Of a stretch of DNA of 34,538 nt, positions 5,595-9,919 are shown one piece after another. Made by a program: the position numbers and the translations under genes. Numbering within the stretch: position 1 is the first letter of the stretch; every line of letters begins with the position of its first letter. The notes beneath the pieces are model-generated. The model had not been told where the DNA came from and searched no databases. It saw only the letters and a program-made list of their open reading frames with translations. Origin of the DNA: Pseudoselenomonas ruminantium (GTDB lineage: Bacteria; Bacillota; Negativicutes; Selenomonadales; Selenomonadaceae); assembly GCA_902781305.1 (NCBI GenBank), contig CACZIV010000019.1, positions 1 to 34,538 on the forward strand, given 5' to 3'.

Positions 5595-6781
5595 CCAATC
5601 CTCAGGGAAGATTCGGCATTCATGGCGGGCAGTACATTCCCGAAACCTTGATGAATGCCGTTATCGAATTAGAAGAAGCCTATAACCACTATAAAAAAGA
5701 CCCGCAGTTCCAAAAGGAACTCACGGAACTCTTAAATGACTATGCCGGCCGTCCATCACGGCTCTATTATGCGGAGAAAATGACCCGCGACTTGGGGGGA
5801 GCAAAAATTTACCTCAAGCGTGAGGACTTAAACCATACCGGCGCACATAAAATCAACAATGTGCTGGGGCAGGCACTACTGGCGAAAAAGATGGGCAAGA
5901 CCCGCCTGATTGCCGAAACCGGCGCCGGCCAGCATGGTGTGGCTACGGCTACGGCGGCAGCACTTATGGGCATGGATTGCGTGGTCTTTATGGGCAAGGA
6001 GGACACGGAACGGCAGGCGCTCAATGTCTACCGCATGCGTTTGCTCGGTGCCAAGGTTGTAGCGGTTACTTCCGGCACGGCGACGCTTAAAGATGCCGTA
6101 TCTGAAGCCATGCGCGAATGGACGACCCGTATCAGCGACACCCATTATTGCTTGGGTTCCGTTATGGGGCCGCATCCGTTCCCGACGATAGTCCGCGACT
6201 TTCAGGCGGTTATCTCACAGGAAATCAAAAGTCAGATGTTAGAGAAAGAAGGTCGCCTGCCGGATGCAGTATTGGCCTGTGTGGGCGGCGGCTCCAATGC
6301 CATCGGCAGTTTCTATCACTTCATTGAGGATGAGCAGGTACGACTGATTGGCTGTGAAGCTGCCGGCAGGGGCATTGACACCTTTGAGACGGCGGCGACC
6401 ATCAATACGGGCCGCGTGGGGATTTTCCACGGCATGAAATCCTATTTCTGTCAGGATGAAAACGGTCAGATTGCACCGGTGTATTCCATTTCAGCGGGGC
6501 TTGACTATCCCGGCGTCGGCCCGGAACATGCCCACCTGCATGATATCGGGCGGGCAGAGTATGTGGCGATTACTGATGATGAAGCAGTGGAGGCGTTTGA
6601 ATATCTCTCGCGGACGGAAGGCATTATCCCGGCGATTGAGTCTTCCCATGCCATCGCCCATGCCATGAAACTGGCACCGCAACTGGACAAGGACAAAATC
6701 ATCGTTGTAACGGTATCTGGACGGGGCGACAAGGACTGTGCCGCCATTGCCCGCTATCGGGGGGAGGATATTCATGAGTAA
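5591..6781 (+). CDS. trpB: Tryptophan synthase beta chain (TrpB)
   Basis: TrpB condenses indole, channelled from TrpA, with L-serine to form tryptophan using pyridoxal phosphate. The 396 residues match the TrpB1 class. The cofactor lysine is K87 in [10 protein letters not shown], the same number as in the Salmonella enzyme, and the phosphate-binding glycine loop GGGSNAIGS is at 232-240. [13 protein letters not shown] and [14 protein letters not shown] are also typical. The last 8 bases overlap the trpA start. Its need for serine gives sense to the serC and serA genes on either side of the operon. Confidence 0.98.
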
Positions 6782-7547
6782 TATTGCAAATGCATTCAAG
6801 AACGGCAAAGCCTTTATACCCTTTTTTACTTGCGGTTTCCCCGATATGGAAACGAGCAAGGCCGCGATTAAGGCGGCTGTGGATAATGGCGCTGACCTTA
6901 TCGAACTGGGGATTCCCTTCTCTGACCCTACAGCCGAAGGTCCGGTGATTCAGCGTTCCACATTGGGGGCGTTGAAAAACGGCGTCAATACCAACAAGAT
7001 TTTCAAGATGGTCAAGGACCTGCGGCAGGAAGTTACGATTCCGCTGGTCTTTATGACCTATGCCAATGTGGTGTTCTCTTATGGCGGGGAGGATTTCTTC
7101 GCCAAATGTCAGGAGGTGGGGATTGATGGGCTTATCCTGCCGGATTTGCCTTATGAGGAAAAAGAAGAATTTGCGGCCCTCAGCGAAAAGTACGGTGTGG
7201 ATTTGATTTCCATGATTGCGCCGACGTCCCATGAGCGCATCGCCATGATTGCCAAAGAAGCCACGGGCTTTATCTATGTGGTCAGCAGTTTGGGCGTTAC
7301 TGGCGTGCGCAAGGAAATCACCACGAATCTGACGGAAATGGTGGAAGAAATCCGTAAGGTCACGGATGTGCCCTGTGCCATTGGCTTTGGCATCGCCAAT
7401 CCCGACCAGTCCAAACGCATGGCCCAGATTGCCGACGGCGTGATTGTAGGGTCAGCCATTGTGAAACTGCTCGAAAAATATGGGAAGGATGCGCCGGAAT
7501 ATGTGGGGGCTTATGTGAAGTCTATGCATCCGAGAAATTTGCTATAA
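6774..7547 (+). CDS. trpA: Tryptophan synthase alpha chain (TrpA)
   Basis: TrpA cleaves indole-3-glycerol phosphate to indole and glyceraldehyde 3-phosphate and passes indole to TrpB. The protein is 257 residues. ATG 6774 is chosen because GGGGGAGG lies just upstream and the protein then begins MSNIANAF as expected; an earlier in-frame ATG would add 12 unusual residues. The catalytic glutamate is E44 in [11 protein letters not shown]. The position of the second catalytic acid (Asp60 in Salmonella) is Glu55 here, in [28 protein letters not shown] and GVIVGSAIV form the phosphate-binding part. It is the last gene of the operon, followed directly by a terminator. Confidence 0.96.
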
Positions 7548-7552
7548 ATGCG

Positions 7553-7585
7553 GCCCGAGGAAAAAGATATTTCCTCGGGCTGTTT
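7553..7585 (+). terminator. Terminator of the trp operon
   Basis: Arms 7553-7563 and 7570-7580 form a perfect 11-bp stem (GCCCGAGGAAA with its complement) with a 6-base loop. It is followed by TGTTT, a weak T run, just after the trpA stop. Confidence 0.75.
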
Positions 7586-7591
7586 CATGAA

Positions 7592-8196
7592 AAATTGCAG
7601 TTTGCCAGTACGTGCTAAAATTTTTTGTTACAGCTCAGTTTGGGCGGAGGTGGTAATACTTTTCGCCGTTGCACGAAATGACCCACAAGGAAATGTATGG
7701 GCTTTTAGCCACCTGCGCCGGGCAAGACCGACGGCGCGTATGTTCAGCGCAATATTTAGTTTATATCGTTTGTGGGCCAGTCCTCACTGTGTTCGGACAG
7801 TCGTTCCACGGCAAAAAGCATCACCACCTCCGCCCTAAGTGATGTTCGTATAAAACGGCATTTTCGCGGTGACAAGCAGCAAGTACATCGATGTTCTTGT
7901 TACGGGAGCAACGAGTTCGTAGCAATAGCCTAATCCGTAACTTGGGGCGAACGGGGAGTGCTTTTTCTGTCAGGAGCGACTGCCTGAACGCAGTGAAGGC
8001 CGGCCCCTGTAGGGCGTTGCTAAGTAAGTTCGCTGACAGAAGCGCCGTTGGCCCGCCCGGCGCAGGCGACTGGACAGCTATTTTTCCCGAGGGGGTCGTT
8101 TAGCGGGAAACAGAAAAAGTACTCCCTGTTTGCCCCTGACAACGTATAAACAGGCTACCTTTAGCACGAAACGAACTCCCCAACAAACTGCAATTT
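7592..8196 (+). ncRNA. Large structured non-coding element, unknown family (candidate RNA or mobile repeat)
   Basis: The 600 bases between trpA and serA hold no credible gene but are full of nested complementarity. A perfect 13-bp helix joins 7592-7604 to 8184-8196, and a perfect 9-bp helix joins 7611-7619 to 8160-8168. Inside lie three domains. Domain A is closed by a perfect 13-bp helix (7642-7654 with 7823-7835) that continues as 7660-7669 with 7808-7816. Domain B is an 8-bp helix (7869-7876 with 7896-7903). Domain C is closed by an unbroken 27-bp helix (7944-7970 with 8110-8136). GCGCCG/CGGCGC hairpins occur in both A (7715-7737) and C (8042-8063). Odd pairs in C and B are all G.U on the plus strand, which favours a plus-strand RNA. 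A possible promoter (TTGCAG 7595-7600, TAAAAT 7616-7621) lies in the left arm. It could instead be a non-autonomous transposable element; I do not recognise the family. Confidence 0.45.
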
Positions 8197-8267
8197 GTTA
8201 CATAAAGCATGAATTAATAGCATAAAACTAAACTTAGAAATAAAATTTGTTTTTTGGTAAAATACAC

Positions 8268-8296: not shown

Positions 8297-8332
8297 GGAA
8301 TAGTGTTATTTTGATTATAAGGAGCGATGGAT

Positions 8333-9919
8333 ATGAAGGTTTTGGCTGCTGATGGCATTTCGCCCAAGGGCATTGAGCTTTTGCAGAAGGAGTTTGAAGT
8401 AGATGTGCGGGACAAGATTTCCGCTGAGGAACTGCTGGAAATTATTCCGCAGTATGATGCATTGATGGTGCGTTCTGCCTCTAAGGTGACGGCTGAAGTC
8501 ATTAACCGGGCAGAGAAGCTCAAGATAATCGGTCGTGCTGGTGTCGGCGTGGATAATATTGACATTCCGGCAGCTACGGCTAAGGGTATTATCGTCATCA
8601 ACTCTCCCGGCGGCAATACCATCGCCGCTACGGAACATACCATGGCCATGATGCTGGCCATGTCCCGCAATATCCCCATTGCCAATGAAACCATGCAGAA
8701 GGGCGAGTGGAATCGCAAGCAGTATGTGGGCGTGGAATTGCGGAATAAGACGCTGGGCGTTATCGGCATGGGCCGTATTGGTTCCGGCGTAGCGAAACGG
8801 GCCATGGCTTTTGATATGAATGTCATCGCTTATGACCCCTATATCAACGAAGACCGTGCCAAAGATTTGGGCGTGACCGTGGGCACGCTCGAAGATGTTA
8901 TCACCCAGTCGGACTTCATCACTGTGCATATGCCGCTGACGCCTGACACCAAGGGCATGATTGGCATGGAACAGATGAAGAAGATGAAAAAGGGCGTACG
9001 TCTGGTGAACTGTGCCCGCGGCGGCATTATCGTCGAAGAAGATTTGGCCGAAGCCGTGAAGCAGGGGATTGTGGCTGGCGCAGCCATCGACGTATTCACC
9101 AGCGAGCCTGTCGGTGCGGACCATCCGCTCGTCGGTGTGCCAGGCATTGTGCTGACGCCGCATCTGGGTGCATCCACGGTGGAAGCGCAGGTCGGCGTAT
9201 CCCTGGATGTATCCGAAGGTATTCTGGCAGCCCTCAAGGGTGAACCAGTGGCAACGGCTGTAAACATGGCGCCGGTTTCTCCGCAGGTCATGAAGGTTAT
9301 TGCGCCTTACCTTACGCTGGCTGAACGCTTGGGCGGCACGGTTGCCTCCTTGGCCGAAGCTCCCGTCAAGAAGGTGGAGGTTACCTACAACGGCGAGATT
9401 ACGGAAGTCAACACGGGCATGCTGACCACGGCTGTAATCAAAGGCCTCTTGAACCCCATTATGGAAAACGATGTAAACTACGTCAACGCTCCTGGTTTGG
9501 CGAAAGAACGCGGCATCAAGGTGACGGAAGTCAAGAAGAAGGAAGCTGAAGACTTTGCTAACCTCATTACGGTCAAAGCCGATATTGGCGGCGGCAAGAA
9601 CCTCACGGTGCAGGGCACGCTCTTTGGCAGCGAAGCCCGCATTGTGCGCATCAACAAATTCCGTGTGGACGTTGACCCACAGGCGCGTATCCTTGTTTGC
9701 CCGCACATCAATAAGCCCGGCGTTATCGGCACGATTGGTACTTTCCTGGGCGTGCATGGTATCAACATTTCCGGCATGCAGGTGGGCAAGACGGAAGTTG
9801 AAGGCACGAGCCTGATGGTGCTGACCGTTGACCATGACATTCCGGCAAGCGTGCTTAAAGATGTCAAGGGCATTGACGGTATCATTGATGCCAAACTGGT
9901 CAACTTCTACGCTATTTGA
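8333..9919 (+). CDS. serA: D-3-phosphoglycerate dehydrogenase (SerA), long form with ACT domain
   Basis: SerA oxidises 3-phosphoglycerate with NAD to 3-phosphohydroxypyruvate, the committed step of serine synthesis. The 528 residues are the long (type I) form. The NAD-binding GMGRIG is at 145-150, the substrate arginine is R229 in NCARGG, the acid of the catalytic pair is E258 in FTSEP, and the histidine is H277 in LTPHLGAS. An intervening regulatory domain follows, and then an ACT domain (about 452-528, from RILVCPHINKPG) that in relatives senses serine. ATG 8333 is preferred over ATG 8327 because AAGGAG at 8319-8324 is 8 bases before the former and only 2 before the latter. The gene is monocistronic. 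Confidence 0.96.
   Translation: MKVLAADGISPKGIELLQKEFEVDVRDKISAEELLEIIPQYDALMVRSASKVTAEVINRAEKLKIIGRAGVGVDNIDIPAATAKGIIVINSPGGNTIAATEHTMAMMLAMSRNIPIANETMQKGEWNRKQYVGVELRNKTLGVIGMGRIGSGVAKRAMAFDMNVIAYDPYINEDRAKDLGVTVGTLEDVITQSDFITVHMPLTPDTKGMIGMEQMKKMKKGVRLVNCARGGIIVEEDLAEAVKQGIVAGAAIDVFTSEPVGADHPLVGVPGIVLTPHLGASTVEAQVGVSLDVSEGILAALKGEPVATAVNMAPVSPQVMKVIAPYLTLAERLGGTVASLAEAPVKKVEVTYNGEITEVNTGMLTTAVIKGLLNPIMENDVNYVNAPGLAKERGIKVTEVKKKEAEDFANLITVKADIGGGKNLTVQGTLFGSEARIVRINKFRVDVDPQARILVCPHINKPGVIGTIGTFLGVHGINISGMQVGKTEVEGTSLMVLTVDHDIPASVLKDVKGIDGIIDAKLVNFYAI

Follow-up and report, generated by a model that had tools for sequence, protein, structure and literature searches.

A MITE-like, probably non-autonomous 605-bp DNA element of Selenomonas at the base of terminator hairpins

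In the window, by which we mean the whole 34,538-nt stretch of DNA analysed here, a 605-bp sequence between trpA and serA is one copy of a dispersed family that is very probably a MITE-like non-autonomous DNA element of Selenomonas, presumably moved by a transposase made elsewhere. The element strongly prefers the base of terminator hairpins. An earlier note on this DNA had left two readings side by side, a large plus-strand ncRNA and a non-autonomous transposable element with terminal inverted repeats; dispersed copies, exact ends, filled and empty sites and a copy on a plasmid bear out the latter. We found this family neither in the libraries nor in the open-access papers searched; as a MITE-like element it is unusual in its target, and it lacks a target duplication. 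It offers a natural, replicated record of a duplication-free, terminator-seeking transposon that seemingly hits the same terminators again in either orientation, and it allows target choice by DNA structure to be put to the test in a genus of which many species have been sequenced.

Anatomy and distribution of the family

The window copy extends from 7592 to 8196 on the plus strand (W orientation); alignments with full-length copies, in its own and in related genomes, begin at base 1 and end at base 605. Its neighbours, identified by NCBIfam and given here as context, are those named in the earlier note: trpA (6774-7547, plus strand; TIGR00262, 286 bits; start codon uncertain) and serA (8327-9919, plus strand; TIGR01327, 667 bits). 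Four short ORFs of the region were compared with Pfam, and none reaches a cut-off; the absence of a credible gene was correctly seen. In 58 copies of the family, the longest ORF per copy measures 52-158 amino acids, with a median of 87.

The copy is bounded by the left terminal inverted repeat AAATTGCAGTTTG (7592-7604, plus strand), 13 bp long and nearly palindromic in itself, and by the right terminal inverted repeat (8184-8196, minus strand), whose 13 nt are 100% complementary to the left one. A 9-bp inner helix follows (left arm 7611-7619, right arm 8160-8168, both given on the plus strand; 9 nt, 100% complementary). Both perfect helices thus lie where they had been claimed; the inner one is exact in the window copy, but its left arm differs among the clade consensuses. 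Further inwards lie hairpin module B (7635-7842; arms 7635-7676/7801-7842, 42 nt, 83% complementary), in which pairs have changed on both sides across clades, a middle module (7870-7946) and hairpin module C (7944-8136; arms 7944-7970/8110-8136, 27 nt, 89% complementary). Within the middle module, a small near-perfect palindrome centred on ATCGAT (7880-7899) is almost constant over the five clade consensuses.

Family-wide figures are based on 79 copies from 15 genomes, a subset of the copies in each genome, which were defined by two recognisable ends, truncated copies thereby staying out of the counts. Most (61 of 79) are 595-615 bp long; 4 measure 660-670 bp, 6 measure 690-750 bp, 2 measure 874-882 bp and 5 measure 277-469 or 587 bp. 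The middle module, single in the window copy, accounts for part of this variation: in longer copies a module of about 134 bp is present two or three times, and element positions 279-355 recur, whole or in part, in copies of 697, 736, 738, 739, 748 and 882 bp, while the 874-bp copy has it unrepeated. A protein-like frame running through the repeated middle module of one copy was considered and rejected, Pfam and PHROGs yielding weak matches only (best E 0.03) and tblastn against phages yielding none.

The 13-bp ends are nearly exact even in copies whose body is only about 74% alike, as expected of an enzyme-binding site; a transposase made elsewhere would bind them. Two features of MITEs are present, terminal inverted repeats with exact ends and dispersed copies without a transposase gene.

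The earlier note had proposed a search for copies in Selenomonadaceae, and dispersed copies with the same exact ends were indeed found. In the draft genome to which the window belongs, similar DNA occurs at 22 places on 20 contigs, though 7 of these places are at contig ends and some may be halves of one copy; the element does not occur singly, which the same note had named as disproof of mobility. By DNA similarity, among 100 genomes searched with five candidates scored in each, the element was present in 15 of the 22 genomes of the genus (its own included) and in none of the 78 outside it. The exact 13-bp end AAATTGCAGTTTG occurs in 19 of the 22 genus genomes, and its backward-read control in none of them. 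All 53 stretches of named genomes in which the left-end pattern was found are titled Selenomonas, the carriers including S. ruminantium ATCC 12561 and HD4, several metagenome bins and Selenomonas sp. AE3005; viral contigs gave no match to the pattern. In genome G005, one exact 13-mer stands in a different setting, at the beginning of a helix-turn-helix-like reading frame; it probably matches by chance.

At the margin of the family, genomes G018 and G009 harbour elements of 429-708 bp with the same ends and bodies that are partly alike, mostly at 70-74%. The S. ruminantium plasmid pSR1 carries a truncated copy (element positions 1-448) with 92% identity to a copy in G013 over 448 bases; this copy spans the start of the record (L140) and overlaps an annotated HAMP-domain gene.

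Insertion sites

A hairpin of the intrinsic-terminator type, followed by its T-tract, lies beside one end of the element in 61 of 77 copies (2 of the 79 were skipped for short flanks, and shared sites are counted more than once). The T-tract ends within 0-5 nt of the element in 53 of these 77. Counted per flank, a terminator occurs in 65 of 154, versus 9-13 of 150 in five draws of control positions lying 110-290 nt farther from the element. It adjoins the left end in 44 copies and the right end in 17, and the neighbouring hairpin still folds beside the element. In the window, the probable target is a terminator-like hairpin behind trpA (7553-7580, plus strand); it has 11 perfect base pairs, leads into a T-rich stretch and lies immediately upstream of the element. 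Genes are left intact when the element lands behind terminators, and this would account for the persistence of such large copies. Group IIC introns insert behind terminators as well; such an intron was rejected here, as the absence of an Rfam match means that no group II catalytic RNA domains were detected.

Target-site duplications, for which the earlier note had proposed to look, are absent from the 79 copies. Common flanking stretches of 0, 1, 2 and 6 nt were seen in 41, 25, 12 and 1 of them, versus 49, 18, 10 and 0.04 for shuffled pairs; that is, 78 copies share 0-2 nt and one shares 6, no better than shuffled flanks. MITEs usually have a short target duplication, unlike the element described here; none is expected from a duplication-free transposase. 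The element would be joined by a blunt or nearly blunt cut beside the terminator hairpin, much as in IS1272/TnSha1.

Between genomes, both flanks match at 15 sites, and at 6 of these the element is reversed. Within the main clade, copies at the same site are 86.7% identical when in the same orientation (17 pairs) and 86.3% identical when flipped (8 pairs), against a background of 86.9% for other copies (961 pairs), while the flanks of shared sites are about 92.6% identical. A common site thus mostly does not mean a common copy. As copies at one site resemble each other no more than other copies do and some are reversed, the same terminators have probably been hit repeatedly, and gene conversion may contribute to the pattern; under the preferred reading, one and the same terminator would be struck again and again. 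Two same-orientation pairs, with 96.5 and 93.4% identity, look inherited.

The trpA-serA site itself was followed in 20 genomes with a match to serA. It is filled in six (G000, G003, G005, G006, G007 and G020), and no element match was found there in the other 14, of which G010 and G011 have upstream DNA unlike trpA. In G005 the right-hand junction lies about 28 nt off, so that junctions at shared sites are not always identical to the base. Elsewhere, three sites are without a detectable element in another species, two of them in G005 and one in G011. At a fourth candidate empty site, filled in G000, both G010 and G011 retain remnants of an element end of about 45 nt; these solo remnants lie near 1416-1458 in L242 (G011) and near 1448-1494 in L243 (G010). 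No base-exact empty site was found among the species compared, which are too far apart.

Most copies of G001, G002, G004, G005, G012, G013 and G017 cluster by species, those at shared sites included. Copies in G017 are up to 98% alike, which implies recent movement there. Near-identity also crosses species boundaries, a 277-bp copy in G003 being 96% like copies of G017 and copies of G004 and G013 that occupy different sites being 99.2% alike; judged by these identities, transfer is suggested.

Could these be old immobile repeats, shuffled by homologous recombination and gene conversion alone? The occupation of the same sites in several species would fit this, as would the star-like relations of the main-clade copies, about 87% alike on average. 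Element-free sites, reversals, the plasmid copy and the preference for one kind of target speak against it, and we hold this explanation to be very unlikely; gene conversion could explain part of the turnover, but not the flips.

Pairing in the element: DNA hairpins or RNA

The window copy folds at -257.5 kcal/mol, versus -194.0 (sd 6.4) for 100 dinucleotide shuffles (z -9.9); its minus strand folds at -248.7 kcal/mol. A cruder measure is less striking: the window copy contains 10 exact reverse-complement 12-mers, the maximum among 100 shuffles being 8. When the consensus of 39 copies is folded without restriction, the left module pairs in large part with the right module, and the whole element thus comes close to a giant imperfect palindrome. 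The three-domain plan put forward earlier therefore has a rival in this consensus fold, which joins the left and right modules.

Pairing was also assessed across copies in a strand-neutral fold, in which no G.U was allowed and the span was limited to 230; it comprises 130 pairs in 58 copies of five clades, drawn from the 62 copies of 590-620 bp by omitting three from G001 with a different body and one that is rearranged. A test for compensatory changes had been suggested in the earlier note, and paired changes were found: 6867 cells are unchanged, 159 are doubly changed yet Watson-Crick and 228 are other, with the reservation that cell counts tally inherited changes many times. With slid partners, the doubly changed Watson-Crick cells number 13-28 instead of 159. 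In the main clade alone, 26 of 5046 cells are doubly changed. Pairing is therefore maintained between clades.

Some of these properties would suit a large structured plus-strand ncRNA of the OLE, GOLLD or ROOL type. Those RNAs are similar to the element on paper, in size and in their closed multibranch plan, and the fold is very stable and accompanied by paired changes. Moreover, the 27-nt helix of module C indeed has three non-Watson-Crick positions, each with G facing T on the plus strand when read from the letters, and in a plus-strand fold of the five clade consensuses that allows G.U, G.U outnumbers A.C by 26 to 16 (22 double changes). Nevertheless, over the 58 copies of the strand-neutral fold, plus-strand G.U occurs 101 times versus 154 for A.C, and when the plus strand of 39 copies is folded without restriction the numbers are 166 and 163 (11 double changes). 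The window copy does have its three G.U, yet they are no rule for the family, and the plus strand is not clearly favoured as RNA. That G.U is not favoured on the plus strand suggests DNA hairpins.

The Rfam and promoter searches point the same way. The covariance search that the earlier note had recommended returned no match in Rfam, either at the gathering threshold or at E up to 1 for 7540-8260. The letters of the weak promoter that it had placed at 7595-7621 (TTGCAG, 15 nt, TAAAAT) are there, but they are without conservation in 58 copies: TAAAAT is kept in 1 of them, 12 lack TTGCAG at that position, and hexamers at spacers of 15-18 match at five of six bases in 3 copies and at fewer in 43. 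A promoter scan inside the element, with spacers of 16-18 only, found none. A multicopy mobile DNA, inserted in both orientations at 6 of 15 shared sites, without plus-strand G.U bias, conserved promoter or Rfam match, is unlike OLE, GOLLD and ROOL, and we regard the RNA reading as extremely unlikely. The family cautions against taking a strong conserved fold, even one with paired changes, as proof of an RNA.

If the element is the MITE-like transposon proposed here, its internal hairpins may have been retained because they are useful to transposition, as DNA cruciforms or folded single strands. Alternatively, the palindromes might correct themselves by template switching between their arms, without any need of selection. 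Taken further, the body of exchangeable palindromic modules would have to fold as DNA for the element to transpose, and the terminator hairpin, not its sequence, would be read as the target. We consider this unlikely; if true, the element would rely on DNA structure at the donor as well as at the target, through an enzyme family not so far linked to MITEs.

A related possibility is that a folded single strand is moved by an HUH nuclease (Y1/RAYT-like) or another structure-reading nuclease, with the hairpin modules as its recognition structure. The lack of target duplication, the keeping of hairpins without plus-strand bias and the insertion beside T-tracts are all consistent with it, but exact 13-bp inverted ends and the use of both orientations better fit a transposase that reads double-stranded ends, which renders such a mover rather improbable. 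In REP/BIME and RAYT systems the extragenic repeats are palindromic, like the element, but REPs are of 20-40 bp, against about 605 bp with 13-bp inverted ends here (PMC3733652, PMC2817692).

Comparable elements, the search for a mover and guest insertions

Prokaryotic MITEs are described as non-autonomous, intergenic and multicopy, with terminal inverted repeats and stable stem-loops (PMC10969869), all of which the element shares. It is larger than the MITE QMITE2, whose core is given there as 113-145 bp (PMC10969869), and it differs from MITEs in its variable number of middle modules, its terminator sites and the absence of a parent IS among the copies fetched.

The closest behavioural precedent is IS1272/TnSha1 of the IS1182 family. 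Its targets are hairpins, confirmed terminators included, there is no target duplication, and a single terminator received insertions repeatedly, in both orientations (PMC4923244). According to the same text, IS1272 deletes part of its target hairpin (PMC4923244), whereas the hairpin beside our element still folds. The element furthermore carries no transposase, and the Selenomonas IS1182 copies seen have other ends.

This precedent raises the question whether the element is an internal-deletion derivative of an IS1182-family insertion sequence. The family membership of IS1272, whose hairpin targets without duplication the element shares, argues for it, and five structures of 2.3 kb in G017 consist of the two parts of the element around an IS1182 transposase. 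They were rejected as autonomous parent, because the IS1182 (1711 bp) is a guest, having its own ends GAGGCCACTGAAAAA and 9-bp duplications. It occurs in 6 copies with identical transposase, 5 of them inside the element (L303, L306, L307, L308 and L309) and one elsewhere (L310), and it sits at two stem positions of the element, in both orientations. The full-length IS1182 genes of G005, G010, G012 and G014 were likewise dismissed as parents, since no pair of the 13-mer bounds any of them; three of the four have flanking arms of the type GGGGCTGTTGCA. No ends are common to the element and any IS1182 copy seen, by which the derivation is largely refuted for those copies, and we judge it improbable overall.

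Among the copies fetched and the matches listed, no transposase gene was found between the 13-bp ends; as most of the genomes are drafts that break at the element, a parent may have been missed. Of the 53 left ends in named loci, 28 are followed by a right end that mismatches at no more than 2 positions; in 27 of these pairs the distance is 350-746 bp. The longest such pair spans 2097 bp, the same length as a structure in G005, which was also rejected as a parent because an IS110-family guest (205 bits), at about 1413-2899 of L311, has inserted there close to the apex of module C. The other 25 left ends lack a right end, 16 of them with fewer than 1000 bases of sequence after them. The hairpins of the element attract other mobile elements (IS1182, IS110).

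Two further sequences were noted next to the element. In G017, GGGGCTGTTGCA begins 9 nt past two element copies, in the flanks of L296 and L297. A second dispersed repeat of about 100 bp (L094:895-993, in G010) directly adjoins the 605-bp element at one site, and in eight genomes of the S. ruminantium group it yields 19-42 query matches per genome.
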